From: a virus
IMG/VR virus record: IMGVR_UViG_3300030390_001702
Coordinates: 1 to 37,851 of that record
DNA length: 37,851 nucleotides
Strand: one strand, 5' to 3'
The position numbers and the translations under genes were made by a program. The notes under the pieces are model-generated. The model was not told the DNA's origin, did not search any database, and saw nothing but the letters and a program-made list of their open reading frames with translations. Shown here piece by piece: positions 17,395-21,441 of the stretch (position 1 is the first letter of the stretch; each line of letters opens with the position of its first letter).

Positions 17395-17883
17395 ATGGCA
17401 GTATTAAACCCAAACGAAATATTTTTTACAGCATTTGAGCCAAAACAAAAGAATAGATTTGTTCTTTATGTAGACGGGATTCCATCATACCAAATTAAGG
17501 GTATGGGAGCTGTAACATTATCACAAGGTACAGTAGCCTTAAATCACATAAACGTTCAAAGGTTTGTAAAAGGTAAAACAACTTGGGGTACAATTCAAAT
17601 GACGTTATTTGACCCAATTACACCATCAGGTGCTCAAGCATGTATGGAATGGGTAAGATTACATCATGAATCAGTAACAGGTAGAGACGGATATTCAGAT
17701 TTTTATAAGAAAGATCTTACATTAGACATATTAGGTCCTGTAGGTGATATCGTATCTGAATGGATTATTAAAGGAGCATTAATTACAGAAGCGAATTTCG
17801 GCGATTACAGCTGGGATACTGAAAATGCTGCACAAGAACTAACATTAACAGTTCAACCAGATTACTGTATATTAAATTTCTAA
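17395..17883 (+). CDS. 19: Tail tube protein (T4 gp19 family)
   Basis: Stacks as hexamers to make the rigid tail tube through which DNA passes. The 162-residue product matches gp19 in length (T4: 163) and pattern: FEPKQKNRFVLYVDGIPSYQIKG at about residues 14-36, then a KTTWGTIQMTLFDPITPSGAQACMEWVR segment (about 61-88), and ESVTGRDGYSDFYKKDLTLDILGPVGDIVSEW before a C-terminal TLTVQPDYCILNF. It is a soluble beta-barrel protein without targeting signals. It follows the sheath gene as in T4, and a strong terminator begins 26 bases after its stop. Confidence 0.96.
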   Translation: MAVLNPNEIFFTAFEPKQKNRFVLYVDGIPSYQIKGMGAVTLSQGTVALNHINVQRFVKGKTTWGTIQMTLFDPITPSGAQACMEWVRLHHESVTGRDGYSDFYKKDLTLDILGPVGDIVSEWIIKGALITEANFGDYSWDTENAAQELTLTVQPDYCILNF

Positions 17884-17909
17884 AAATACTTTGTAGATTT
17901 ATTGAAAAT

Positions 17910-17936
17910 AGCTTGGCTTCGGTCAAGCTTTTTTTT
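17910..17936 (+). terminator. Rho-independent terminator with UUCG tetraloop
   Basis: An 8-bp stem, AGCTTGGC (17910-17917) and GTCAAGCT (17922-17929), with one G-T wobble. The loop is TTCG closed by a C-G pair, the exceptionally stable cUUCGg tetraloop. A run of eight T follows. It ends the sheath-tube unit. Confidence 0.93.
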
Positions 17937-17985: not shown

Positions 17986-18714
17986 ATGAGTGATTACAAA
18001 TTTCCTACTGAAGAGGTAGAATTACCATCAAAAGGATTAATATACCCAGAAACAAACCCATTATCTAGAGGTGTCGTTGAAATGAAATACATGACAGCTA
18101 AAGAAGAAGATATTTTAACAAATCAAGCATTTATTAAAAAAGGTATTGTATTAGATAAATTATTAAGATCATTAGTAGTTACTAAAGATGTTAATATAGA
18201 TGATATGATAGTTGGAGATAAAAACGCTATTTTAATTGCATCCAGATTATTAGGATATGGTGCTGAATATAAGTTTACATACAACAATGAAGAACATACA
18301 GTAGATTTAAATGAATTAGATAATAAAGTAATTGATGAATCATTATTTGAAAAAGGTAAAAATGAATTTGAATTTACTACACCTACTTCAAAAAATAAAC
18401 TTACATATAAGTTAATTACAGGTAAAGACGAAAAAGCTATTGATAGAGAAATAGCTGGATTGAAAAAATTAAACAAAGAAGGATCATTTTCTCTAACTAC
18501 AAGATTAAAGTTTGCTATTATTGCCGTAGATGGTGATGATGAAAAGAAAACAGTACGTGAATTTGTAGATAATAGATTCCTTGCTAGAGACTCTAGGGCT
18601 TTCCGAGAACATATAAAACACACACAGCCTGATGTAGATATGAGTATTGTTCTTGATAGCGGAGAGGAGGCCGATGTCCCTATAGGACTTAACTTTTTTT
18701 GGCCTGACTATTAA
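17986..18714 (+). CDS. 26: gp26-family baseplate/tail assembly protein, probable tail assembly chaperone
   Basis: The 242-residue product matches the T4 baseplate protein family of gp26 (Pfam T4_baseplate): VELPSKGLIYPETNPLSRGVVEMKYMTAKEEDILTNQAFIKKGIVLDKLLRSLVV (about residues 11-65), then DKNAILIASRLLGYGAEYKF and a helical C-terminal half. In T4, gp26 takes part in hub assembly. Here the gene sits between tail tube and tape measure, exactly where other tailed phages carry the tail assembly chaperone gene, and its end contains a run of seven T after which the +1 frame continues as protein-like sequence to 18997. It normally ends NFFWPDY. The product may thus be the short chaperone form, with a frameshifted longer form. 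Family call is firm; the chaperone role is inferred. Confidence 0.85.
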   Translation: MSDYKFPTEEVELPSKGLIYPETNPLSRGVVEMKYMTAKEEDILTNQAFIKKGIVLDKLLRSLVVTKDVNIDDMIVGDKNAILIASRLLGYGAEYKFTYNNEEHTVDLNELDNKVIDESLFEKGKNEFEFTTPTSKNKLTYKLITGKDEKAIDREIAGLKKLNKEGSFSLTTRLKFAIIAVDGDDEKKTVREFVDNRFLARDSRAFREHIKHTQPDVDMSIVLDSGEEADVPIGLNFFWPDY

Positions 18715-18997
18715 TATCGCACCTCAAAAAAGGTTAAATTTATTTTCTCAAATAAACCAAATAGTATTCCACGGTAAAGGGGGATATGATTATCATACTG
18801 TATATAATATGCCTATATGGTTAAGAAATTATACATTTTCAGAAATTCAGAAATGGTATGATAAAGAAAAAAAGGCACATGAAGATGCTGCTAAGGGTAA
18901 AGAAAAACAAACTTTAGTAAATCCAGACGGAAAAGTAAATGCTCCTGCATTTGCAAATGCTAGTAAACCATTTCAAGGTAAAAGCAGTTATAAATAG
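18686..18997 (+). CDS. Frameshift-accessed extension of the gp26-family protein (GT-like)
   Basis: This frame is open from 18686 to the stop at 18995-18997 and overlaps the end of the preceding gene. It reads DLTFFGLTINIAPQKR, then LNLFSQINQIVFHGKGGYDYH, then NMPIWLRNYTFSEIQKWY and a charged, lysine-rich tail. No ATG occurs until 18809, and the sequence before that codon is as protein-like as the rest, so I do not take 18809 as the true start. The simplest reading is a +1 (or -2) ribosomal shift at TTTTTTT (18694-18700), giving a long form of about 340 residues, like the G-GT tail chaperones of other phages. Alternatives: a sequencing error in the T run, or a separate short gene starting at 18809. 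Confidence 0.65.
   Translation, partial: DLTFFGLTINIAPQKRLNLFSQINQIVFHGKGGYDYHTVYNMPIWLRNYTFSEIQKWYDKEKKAHEDAAKGKEKQTLVNPDGKVNAPAFANASKPFQGKSSYK
18691..18703 (+). other. Putative ribosomal slippage site, seven T
   Basis: AACTTTTTTTGGC: frame one reads AAC TTT TTT TGG and ends seven codons after AAC at 18712-18714; the +1 frame reads ACT TTT TTT GGC and stays open to 18997. tRNA-Phe on TTT can re-pair with TTT after a slip of +1 or -2. A -1 slip would hit a stop at once (TGA 18705-18707). Confidence 0.6.
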
Positions 18998-19041: not shown

Positions 19042-21441
19042 ATGGCGATGTTCGATGATATTCAAAAAGCTAATAAAGAATTAGAAAGATTAAAAAAAGA
19101 TTATTTTGATCTAACTGGTAAGACGGCTCCTTTATTTAAAGTTAATAATATTAAAGATGCTAACGCAGCTGTAGAGACTATGAACAAATCCCTTGCTCAA
19201 ACGAGAAGGGAAATTGAGGAATTAGATAGAGGTTTTGGTGGAATAGCTGAAGAAATTGGTAATATACTTACTGAATTAGGTAAGGCCAATACTCCAATAA
19301 AAGAATCTACAAAGCAACTTGGTATTCAAGAAAAAATAGCTAGAAAATTAAGAGATGACCAAGCAGGAATAAATAAATTATCTTTAAAAGAACTTGAGGC
19401 ACTAAAATCTAAACAAGCATCATCTCAAGATATAATAAAATCAAAATCTGATCAACTTCTAAAAGATGCAGGTTTAGAAAATTCTTCTAAAAAACAAATT
19501 GAAAATGAAATAAAAAGGTTAGCAAACGGAACAGAAGAAGAAAAAAAGAAAGCTGAAATATTAGCTTTATCCCAAGACGAAAATAATGTCCAGAATAGAC
19601 TTGGTAAACAAATTCAAGATCGAATAGATAAAGAAAAAGTACTTAATGATGCATTAGGTATAAGTGGTGGTTTACTTAAAGGAGTAAAAGGATCTTTAGA
19701 TGCTTTAGGTTTAGGAGGTTTAGCAAGTGTGTTAAATTTAGAAGAGGCACAAAAAGAAATGGAGAAGGTAGCTGATGAAGTTACTAAGGGAGGAACGGAA
19801 GCAGCTGGATTTTCAGGAAAATTAAAAATAATGTCTGCAGGATCAGCAGCATTAGGAAAAGGATTAATGAAAGCCTTTACAGACCCAGCAACAGTAATGG
19901 TTGCTCTTACAAAGGGTCTTATGGATGCGTTTAAGCATTTAGATGAAGACACAGGAAATATAGCTAAAAACATGAATATGTCTTATACTGAGGCATTAAA
20001 GGTTACAGGCGAATTAAAATCTCAAGCTAAAGCATCAGGTGATGTATTTGTTACTACTGCAGGTATGACTGAAACTATGTTAGCTGTAAATGATGCATTA
20101 GGTATTTCAGTTCAATTAACAGGTGATCAAGCAGCTGAGTTTACTTCTTTAAGAGAACAAGCTGGTCTTACAAATGAAGAATTAATTGGTATAAATGCAC
20201 TTTCTGCTACTACAGGAAAGGGAATGAAAGAAATTACTGGTGAGGTAATGGCTCAAGCTAGATTAAAAGGACAAGAATTAGGTGTAGCATTAAATGAAAA
20301 AGAAATATTAAAAGAAATAGGAAAAGTATCAGCAGCTACAACATTATCATTTGGTAAAAACCCTGGTTTAATAGCTGAAGCAGTAGCAGCAACTAAAGCT
20401 TTAGGTTTAGAAATGGGTCAAGTAGAAGGTATAGCTGATAGTTTATTAGATTTTGAAGGTGGTATTGCTAAAGAAATGGAAGCTGAGTTATTACTTGGTA
20501 AGAATTTAAATCTTGAAAAAGCAAGACAAGCGGCATTAGATAACGACTTAGTAACCTTAGCTGAAGAAATAGCTAAAAATGTAGGAGATTCAGCTGATTT
20601 TGCTGAAATGAATAGAATACAACAAGATGCTTTAGCAGCATCCGTTGGTATGAGTAGGGAAGAATTAGGTAAAATGTTATTTAACCAAGAACAATTAGTT
20701 GGATTAAGTGCAGAAGAAACTGCTATTAGAGAAAAACAAATTAATGATTTAGAAGCAAAAGGTTTATCTCAAGCTGAAATAAAAGAAGAATTAGCTAATA
20801 CTTCTATTGCACAATTAGAAGAACAAGCGTCTATTAGTGATAAAATGAATGCTTCTATGGATAAACTAAAGGAAGCATTTGGATCCATAGCTATAATAGC
20901 AATGCCATTTTTTAATGGTATGGCAAGTGCAGCAGCAGCTTTAGCTGAAATGCCTGTAGTAGCTGGAATATTAGTAGGTGTATTAGGGAGTTTAGCTGCT
21001 ATGGCAGCAGTATTAGCAATAAGTTCAATGGTACAAGCAGTTGGTGCTATATTTACTTCATTCGGAGCAATACCATTTGGATTAGGTGTACCAGCTGCAA
21101 TTGGAACTGTTTTAGCTTTAGGTGGTTTAATAGGTGGTGTAGTAGCAGCAATTCCAAAAGGAGATGATGTTGTTATGCCAGGTAGTTCAGGTGGTGGATA
21201 TGGTGGTAGAATGTTAAAAGGACCAGAAGGTGTTATATCACTAAACAATAAAGACACAGTTATAGCAGGTACTAATTTATTCCCTAAAGGAGATGATGTT
21301 ATGTCAGCACCCGCTGGTGCAATATCTATGGGGGGAAATAGTGGAGCATCTGATAAAACAAATCAATTACTTACTCAAATGGTTGGATTCCAAAAGAAAC
21401 AACCTGGTTTTTCAAGAGTAAGTTTATACGAAGTACAATAA
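19042..21441 (+). CDS. Tail tape measure protein
   Basis: Sets tail length and occupies the tube lumen. The 799-residue product has the typical layout: a long helical coiled-coil N-terminal two thirds (for example residues 3-25, 45-70, 130-200), and a strongly hydrophobic, alanine/glycine-rich region at about residues 615-715 (AIIAMPFFNGMASAAAALAE, GILVGVLGSLAAMAAVLAIS). The C-terminal segment has KGDDVVMPGSSGGGYGGRML, GPEGVISLNNKDTVIAGTNLF and a second KGDDVMSAP. To my knowledge the GPEG-LNNKDTVIAGT-LF motif recurs in marine T4-like tape measures. By position it corresponds to T4 gp29 (590), but it is longer. If the usual 1.5 angstrom per residue rule holds, the tail would be near 120 nm (inference). 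Confidence 0.85.
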   Translation: MAMFDDIQKANKELERLKKDYFDLTGKTAPLFKVNNIKDANAAVETMNKSLAQTRREIEELDRGFGGIAEEIGNILTELGKANTPIKESTKQLGIQEKIARKLRDDQAGINKLSLKELEALKSKQASSQDIIKSKSDQLLKDAGLENSSKKQIENEIKRLANGTEEEKKKAEILALSQDENNVQNRLGKQIQDRIDKEKVLNDALGISGGLLKGVKGSLDALGLGGLASVLNLEEAQKEMEKVADEVTKGGTEAAGFSGKLKIMSAGSAALGKGLMKAFTDPATVMVALTKGLMDAFKHLDEDTGNIAKNMNMSYTEALKVTGELKSQAKASGDVFVTTAGMTETMLAVNDALGISVQLTGDQAAEFTSLREQAGLTNEELIGINALSATTGKGMKEITGEVMAQARLKGQELGVALNEKEILKEIGKVSAATTLSFGKNPGLIAEAVAATKALGLEMGQVEGIADSLLDFEGGIAKEMEAELLLGKNLNLEKARQAALDNDLVTLAEEIAKNVGDSADFAEMNRIQQDALAASVGMSREELGKMLFNQEQLVGLSAEETAIREKQINDLEAKGLSQAEIKEELANTSIAQLEEQASISDKMNASMDKLKEAFGSIAIIAMPFFNGMASAAAALAEMPVVAGILVGVLGSLAAMAAVLAISSMVQAVGAIFTSFGAIPFGLGVPAAIGTVLALGGLIGGVVAAIPKGDDVVMPGSSGGGYGGRMLKGPEGVISLNNKDTVIAGTNLFPKGDDVMSAPAGAISMGGNSGASDKTNQLLTQMVGFQKKQPGFSRVSLYEVQ

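Follow-up and report, generated by a model that had tools for sequence, protein, structure and literature searches.

Does an open frame that continues past the end of a phage tail gene encode a protein of its own, or is it joined to that gene by a ribosomal slip and, if so, in which direction? The question arises from a 37,851-nucleotide stretch of viral DNA (IMG/VR record IMGVR_UViG_3300030390_001702; here, the window). A reading made from its letters without database searches (the sequence-only reading) had described a gp26-family gene at 17986-18714 that ends just after seven T at 18694-18700, with the +1 frame open to 18997, and had taken the two frames for a G/GT pair of tail assembly chaperones. 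We confirmed this layout in the sequence. The locus is very probably a G/GT tail-assembly-chaperone pair made by +1 frameshifting, with both products predicted. Comparison with relatives showed conserved two-frame coding, a conserved candidate slip site, a +1 direction, and loss of the site where T has its own start; the G/GT reading also drew support from its position and from the predicted fold, at modest Z scores.

Gene order and the G/T junction

The window contains the tail module of a contractile-tailed phage that is a distant relative of T4, with sheath, tube, gp26-family, and tape measure genes. Two overlapping frames lie between the tail tube and tape measure genes, as in lambda gpG/gpGT and similar pairs, which likewise have a short and a long form and a slip near the end of G. 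The features are as follows.

17395..17883, + strand: tail tube protein (gp19 family), 5′ of G; phrog_4542 tail tube protein, E = 3.9e-22
17986..18714, + strand: G, putative short tail assembly chaperone of the gp26 family, 242 aa, zero-frame product; phrog_150 and matches of an AlphaFold2 model in the PDB
17986..18997, + strand: GT, predicted +1 fusion, 336 aa, junction ...PIGLNFF/GLTINIAPQK, from translation across the shift
18661..18670, + strand: purine-rich stretch GGAGAGGAGG, for which about half of the relatives have a counterpart at −28 to −34; GAGGAG-like enrichment and GAG codon excess
18694..18700, + strand: slippery T run, codons TTT TTT T(GG); conserved junctions, no synonymous variation, loss cases
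18697..18699, + strand: predicted P-site slip codon within the T run, re-pairing on 18698-18700
18701..18997, + strand: T, C-terminal extension in the +1 frame, 98 aa plus stop, beginning GLTINIAPQKR; relatives, purifying selection, T-domain profile similarity
18705..18707, + strand: TGA in the −1 frame directly 3′ of the slip site
19042..21441, + strand: tape measure protein, 799 aa, directly 3′ of T; matches the tape measure annotated in Flavobacterium phage immuto (30% identity, E = 3e-64)

Between the tube gene and G, an AGCTTG...CAAGCT hairpin followed by eight T (17909-17936) resembles an intrinsic terminator, and a terminator is annotated at the same position in Bacillus phage SP-15. 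This hairpin could lower G relative to the tube protein.

The 3′ end of G reads, in frame, AAC TTT TTT TGG CCT GAC TAT TAA. The +1 frame is open from 18686 to its stop at 18995-18997 and reads ...FFGLTINIAPQKR...FHGKGGYDYHTVYNMPIWLRNYTF; the part running through the seven T to 18997 codes GLTINIAPQKRLNLFSQINQIVFHGKGGYDYHTVYNMPIWLRNYTF... Its first ATG is at 18809, within the conserved T domain. The window contains the 15-mer TTTTTTTGGCCTGAC a single time, versus five runs of at least seven T. The purine-rich stretch GGAGAGGAGG ends 23 nt 5′ of the T run, and a mini-ORF (ATG 18674, TAG 18683-18685) is also present. Compared with the closest relative (L002), the T frame had a dN of 0.055 and a dS of 0.356 (dN/dS ≈ 0.15), a ratio indicating that it is under purifying selection. 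The predicted +1 junction peptide of the window phage is HTQPDVDMSIVLDSGEEADVPIGLNFFGLTINIAPQK, and the predicted tryptic junction peptide of Flavobacterium phage immuto is FFPEDGPDGGVDIPIGVSFLGLTPEYR.

Conservation of the +1 arrangement

We searched viral contigs (IMG/VR) separately with G and with T and retained 160 first-round loci that held both halves, the window included. T lay in the +1 frame in all 160, so the two-frame arrangement is not due to chance. The junction TTT TTT TGG CCT GAC was nearly invariant across these loci, in which most G proteins were only 49 to 70% identical to that of the window. With later searches included, there were 199 distinct +1 junctions: 175 TTT TTT TGG, 9 TTC TTT TGG, 6 TTT CTT TGG, and a remainder of rare variants. 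The split and the T run, whose conservation the sequence-only reading had proposed to check in homologues, are thus shared, and the case that it had named as fatal, six T and one continuous gene, occurred in no relative. The same +1 arrangement was found in 10/10 distant relatives from bacterial or archaeal assemblies (26 to 31% identity) and in isolates: Flavobacterium phage immuto, Microcystis phage Mel-JY01, Bacillus phage SP-15, Listeria phage LIS04, Streptococcus phage GXN1, and Rhodothermus phage RM378. A query of the viral contigs with SP-15 returned no match beyond SP-15 itself.

Within the window's clade (96 nonredundant G genes), the two Phe slip codons were the sole columns with zero synonymous variation among some 74 conserved degenerate codon columns. 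They were TTT in 96/96 and 95/96 genes, and TTT usage elsewhere was 86%. The relatives share, near the 3′ end of G, a conserved frameshift site that joins T in another frame. Stenotrophomonas phage IME-SM1 (L188) fitted neither the +1 pattern nor the −1 pattern described below.

Direction of the probable slip

The sequence-only reading had left the slip as +1 or −2. A −2 ribosomal slip on the T run, known from the tail genes of phage Mu (PMC5009743), would add one extra Phe at the junction, and from the window sequence alone it is indistinguishable from a +1 slip, TTTTTTT letting tRNA-Phe re-pair either way. The junction is, however, TTC TTT TGG in a giant-phage-like group and TTC TTT CGT in GXN1, where tRNA-Phe would re-pair perfectly on UUU or UUC after a +1 slip but would meet UCU, with a middle-base mismatch, after a −2 slip. 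The two-base-back re-pairing of the Mu type is therefore not available in all homologues. In addition, isolates and contigs with TTT CTT TGG match the CUU-to-UUU slip of release factor 2. Because TTC TTT TGG and TTC TTT CGT re-pair tRNA-Phe only at +1, we took the direction to be +1 and excluded −2, which we consider very unlikely; the +1 half of the earlier proposal was borne out and the −2 half was not. In two further variants, LIS04 (TTT TTT AGT) and LR756508 (TTT CTA TTC), +1 re-pairing is still possible at the first Phe codon. A −1 heptanucleotide (X XXY YYZ) leading into a downstream −1 frame does not describe the locus either: T is in the +1 frame, and the −1 frame meets the TGA at 18705-18707.

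The base before the run separated the window's clade from a group of −1 phages (see below). It was C, G, or A in 95/96 genes of the +1 clade and T in 42/42 genes of the −1 group, and where an Asn codon precedes the run in the +1 clade it was AAC in 49/49 cases, compared with AAT in 76% elsewhere. Each group's pre-run base favors its own shift direction, giving the opposite signatures that two directions would require.

Two further explanations would do without a ribosomal slip. RNA polymerase slippage on the run of seven T would give an mRNA one base shorter and fuse G to T without frameshifting, in keeping with a homopolymer run that is present and conserved in most relatives. The frame arrangement is unchanged, however, in clade members with four T (TTC TTT TGG) or three T (TTC TTT CGT) and in those with the broken run TTT CTT TGG (isolate immuto included), and the run is almost never lengthened leftward, though synonymous codons would permit it. 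Because these relatives lack a long enough homopolymer, we rejected transcriptional slippage as highly improbable. A homopolymer is also a typical site of sequencing or assembly error, and a broken gene would look much the same; yet the 199 distinct junctions, which come from many isolates and assemblies, differ in run length and agree in frame offset, and both parts are under purifying selection, so that an error or a broken gene is scarcely credible.

The predicted slip resembles that of release factor 2 (prfB), where the P-site tRNA slips +1 on CUU UGA; in the window's clade the codon would be NUU, moving to UUU. The exact CTT T of the prfB type is present in immuto and in the contigs L052, L155, and L316-L320. 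In tests of release factor 2, UUU and CCC ranked directly behind CUU in slipperiness (PMC10274946). prfB relies on an A-site stop codon and a Shine-Dalgarno sequence by the slip site, whereas the window's clade has TGG in the A site and no adjacent Shine-Dalgarno sequence.

Natural loss of the putative slip site

We next weighed whether T could be a separate small protein with its own start, by reinitiation after the G stop or from a non-AUG codon such as CUG at 18704. Three derived lineages do carry an ATG-started T, and the immuto record annotates a fragment of the 37-aa class from an internal start. Among the 96 nonredundant relatives, however, just one had an ATG within the first ten T codons, and just 45 had any ATG, GTG, or TTG within ten codons on either side. 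Conservation of T reaches the slip site, 5′ of any start, and a separate T would leave unexplained the frozen TTT TTT codons, which are changed precisely where T has its own start. We assign this explanation a very small chance and rejected an independent start except in the three derived lineages. The sequence-only reading had held that homologues with an independent start would count against it; such homologues exist but are rare, and their slip codons are altered, so that the frameshift reading stands.

The three lineages lie inside the clade (L296; L300/L315; L335/L336), and their T, on its own ATG, is beyond the reach of a +1 shift. L300 reads TTC CTT TGG CCA, with T beginning 8 nt after the G stop; its residual CTT T could still slip, yet T is not in the +1 frame. 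L296 reads TTC TTG TAT CCT, and its T is in a different frame and starts just beyond the G stop. L335 and L336 read TTC TTC TGG CCT, and a gene for a homing endonuclease of the GIY-YIG type has been inserted between their G and T. All three lineages have altered slip codons and retain the encoded F(F/L)(W/Y)P. These lineages amount to a natural loss control for the slip site.

The GIY-YIG gene (L335:2194-2877, identical in L336; PF01541, E = 1.3e-5) sits exactly between G and T, and a second endonuclease-like gene lies between the tube gene and G. Homing might be directed at the invariant slip site.

Sequence context of the predicted slip

A GAGGAG-like motif occurred at −28 to −34 in 52/96 relatives versus a background of 7.5%, within a GC-rich stretch, 18 to 45 nt 5′ of the slip, that has unusual GAG codons (GAG 73% versus 13%). 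The sequence-only reading had allowed that the purine-rich stretch might matter or be coincidence: it is enriched in about half of the relatives, but it lies too far 5′ of the slip for the classical, known effect of a Shine-Dalgarno stimulator. Third-position GC in the window (18649-18693) and its relatives was 0.32 to 0.64 in codons −15 to −6 before the slip, versus about 0.2, and Gly at codon −3 was GGG in 41/70 cases, versus about 6% elsewhere. The raised third-position GC and the GGG codon point to a constraint at the nucleotide level. No Shine-Dalgarno-like motif was found within −15 to −1 of the slip in the 96 genes. In the window as a whole, an AGGA, GGAG, or GAGG motif preceded 0/32 main ORF starts (background, 11%), which suggests that the host, like Bacteroidota, does not use Shine-Dalgarno initiation. 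The mini-ORF, for which the sequence-only reading had allowed either a role or coincidence, looks like coincidence; an ATG in that frame 5′ of the slip was present in 20/96 relatives.

The 70 nt 3′ of the slip folded like control regions, giving no sign of a downstream RNA stimulator, and the slightly better folding of −50 to +10 (mean z about −1 against simple shuffles) was not taken as evidence of a stimulator. The A-site codon varied among relatives (TGG, TAC, TAT, CAC, CGT, and AGT), and therefore no single special rare codon is required. A −1-frame stop just 3′ of the run was present in most relatives but not all, as was CCTGA. This stop was built differently from phage to phage (CC TGA in the window, TAA in Mel-JY01 and RM378, TAG in LIS04); speculatively, it could abort unwanted −1 slips or limit their damage.

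Family and fold of G and T

The window's G matched phrog_150 ("baseplate hub," T4 gp26 family; E = 1.2e-6). It fell below the Pfam T4_baseplate model PF12322, which was reached by its relatives in SP-15, GXN1, LIS04, RM378, and LR756508. An AlphaFold2 model of G had a pLDDT of 93.5, and its top three PDB matches were 3FGX (Z = 5.9), 2OB9 (Z = 4.9), and 5IR0 (Z = 3.8), a modest similarity (Z < 6, about 85 residues aligned) with unrelated entries from 2.6 down. 3FGX, 2OB9 (HK97 tail assembly chaperone), and 5IR0 have been described as tail assembly chaperones (PMC9603447; PMC12987554). Foldseek alone gave no significant PDB match for the model. The predicted fold is thus supporting, though not decisive, for a tail assembly chaperone identity. 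For T4 gp51, a naturally fused protein, the best PDB match of a model was unrelated (Z = 4.7) and no chaperone was among the matches, which neither supports nor excludes that identity.

The frameshift could be real and yet produce a minor structural pair of the hub rather than tape measure chaperones. Databases label the family "baseplate hub," and some T4 genetics places gp26 in the hub; the same source, however, lists both proteins, gp26 and gp51, among the hub assembly chaperones and describes gp51 as needed for assembly and absent from the finished particle (PMC3004832). The best fold matches are tail assembly chaperones and the gene order is that of G/GT, and we regard the hub pair as unlikely.

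For the window's T domain, searches of Pfam, PHROG, and NCBIfam returned nothing credible and no phrog hit, and Pfam gave no match to the P2 E′ family. We compared profiles with hhalign, for which all values are single-comparison E values. Window T against gp51 (phrog_634 type) was weak and not significant (E = 0.16), and T of the window's clade against cyanophage T was weak (1.4e-3). A chain of comparisons connected them: T of the window's clade with giant-phage-like T (5e-15), giant-phage-like T with cyanophage T (6.5e-7), and cyanophage T with the gp51 C terminus (8e-10). A giant-phage-like T domain (L285:2694-2880) also had a weak match to PF20546 (DUF6760, E = 0.03), a possible link to other contractile tail-like systems.

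A −1 group and a duplication in the same family

In the −1 group, G is followed by a T of about 50 to 65 aa in the −1 frame, via T TTT TTC in 40/42 nonredundant loci. Its members include cyanophages and further T4-related phages that lie outside T4's own group (pf16, Aeromonas phage P19, Acidovorax phage ACP17, Vibrio phage VH7D, Agrobacterium phage OLIVR6, and Rhizobium phage RHph_I1_9). In the records of cyanophages and related phages (L180, L182-L185, L189-L192), T is annotated, if at all, as a separate gene of 45 to 65 aa that is labeled "gp51," hypothetical, or "baseplate hub assembly catalyst." A −1 fusion, rather than separate genes, is what the T TTT TTC heptamer in these phages suggests.

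In hhalign, a fused cyanophage GT and T4 gp51 aligned over their full lengths (E = 6e-23), and T4 gp26/gp51 share the G family of the window (phrog_150). T4 has two genes, one for the short and one for the in-frame long form, whereas the window's clade has a +1 shift and the cyanophages and their like a −1 shift. The gp51 and gp26 genes of Klebsiella phage KP15 are in tandem on one strand (L193:2501-3795) and those of T4 are divergent, which are different layouts of one duplication. In a maximum likelihood tree of G, a single branch (support, 100/99) split all 21 of the +1 rows from all 18 of the −1 and duplicated rows, and the gp26/gp51 of T4 and KP15 formed one group (97/91) on the −1 side. 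On the tree, therefore, direction changed a single time, and the −1 side gave rise to the T4 duplication. The +1 half is spread over phages of Bacteroidota, Firmicutes, Rhodothermus, and a Microcystis host and over giant phages.

A broader proposal, on which we are evenly divided, is that a single ancient switch in direction splits the T4-type tail chaperone family. Its +1 half would use a previously undescribed signal, UUU-U or CUU-U plus a sense codon (usually UGG), that acts without a stop codon, a rare codon, or an ordinary Shine-Dalgarno stimulator and is aided by the GC-rich stretch 18 to 45 nt upstream.

Proposed expression of G and GT

On the +1 reading, most ribosomes would read AAC TTT TTT TGG CCT GAC TAT TAA and make the short form G (242 aa). 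In a fraction of them, with tRNA-Phe on the second TTT in the P site and TGG in the A site, the tRNA would slip one base forward, re-pair with UUU at 18698-18700, and continue in the +1 frame (GGC CTG ACT...) to give GT (336 aa). In the relatives with CUU, tRNA-Leu would occupy the P site and UGG the A site before the +1 slip and re-pairing. If lambda is a guide, the tape measure protein, encoded by the adjacent gene, would be coated by many copies of G and few of GT; the T part would recruit tail tube subunits, and G and GT would dissociate before tail completion. We infer the synthesis of both products, the ratio between them, and their action as chaperones.

Tail assembly chaperone pairs made by programmed frameshifting were reportedly described by Xu in 2004. 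Lambda-type pairs usually shift −1, whereas in the window the shift would be +1, on UUU-U, while a sense codon occupies the A site. The window's G belongs to the T4 gp26 family, unlike lambda-type G. Few bacterial +1 sites, to our knowledge, involve slipping on a sense codon. G/GT frameshifting in general, and +1 shifting in some phages, is established (PMC5009743). The haloarchaeal myovirus HSTV-2 has a proposed +1 shift in its tail chaperone gene, as in the window (PMC5009743); it belongs to a different virus lineage, and the likeness is one of direction and gene type.

The −1 and duplication parts of the family are already known. Vladimirov, Gautam, and Davidson reportedly treated the tail assembly chaperones of T4-like phages, with −1 and duplicated arrangements, in 2022. 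We also arrived at the view that gp26 and gp51 of T4 represent a split G/GT pair, which is prior art. Of the papers that cite the 2022 study, one states that some T4-like phages carry a short gene and a long fused one (PMC10885494), and another that −1 signals of the poly-T kind occur in T4-like phages (PMC12846349). We found no description of the +1 branch in the literature covered, in which the 2022 study is represented by the papers that cite it.

A 2016 review described G/GT frameshifting as conserved in long-tailed phages "except T4" (PMC5009743), and later work accounts for T4 by two separate genes. The arrangement supplies a rule for annotation: records such as those of immuto and SP-15 currently omit T or include just a fragment of it. 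The roughly 200 natural variants and the three loss cases make the predicted +1 site directly testable. With the +1 branch, the −1 branch, and the T4 duplication, one family would hold three solutions to one expression problem.
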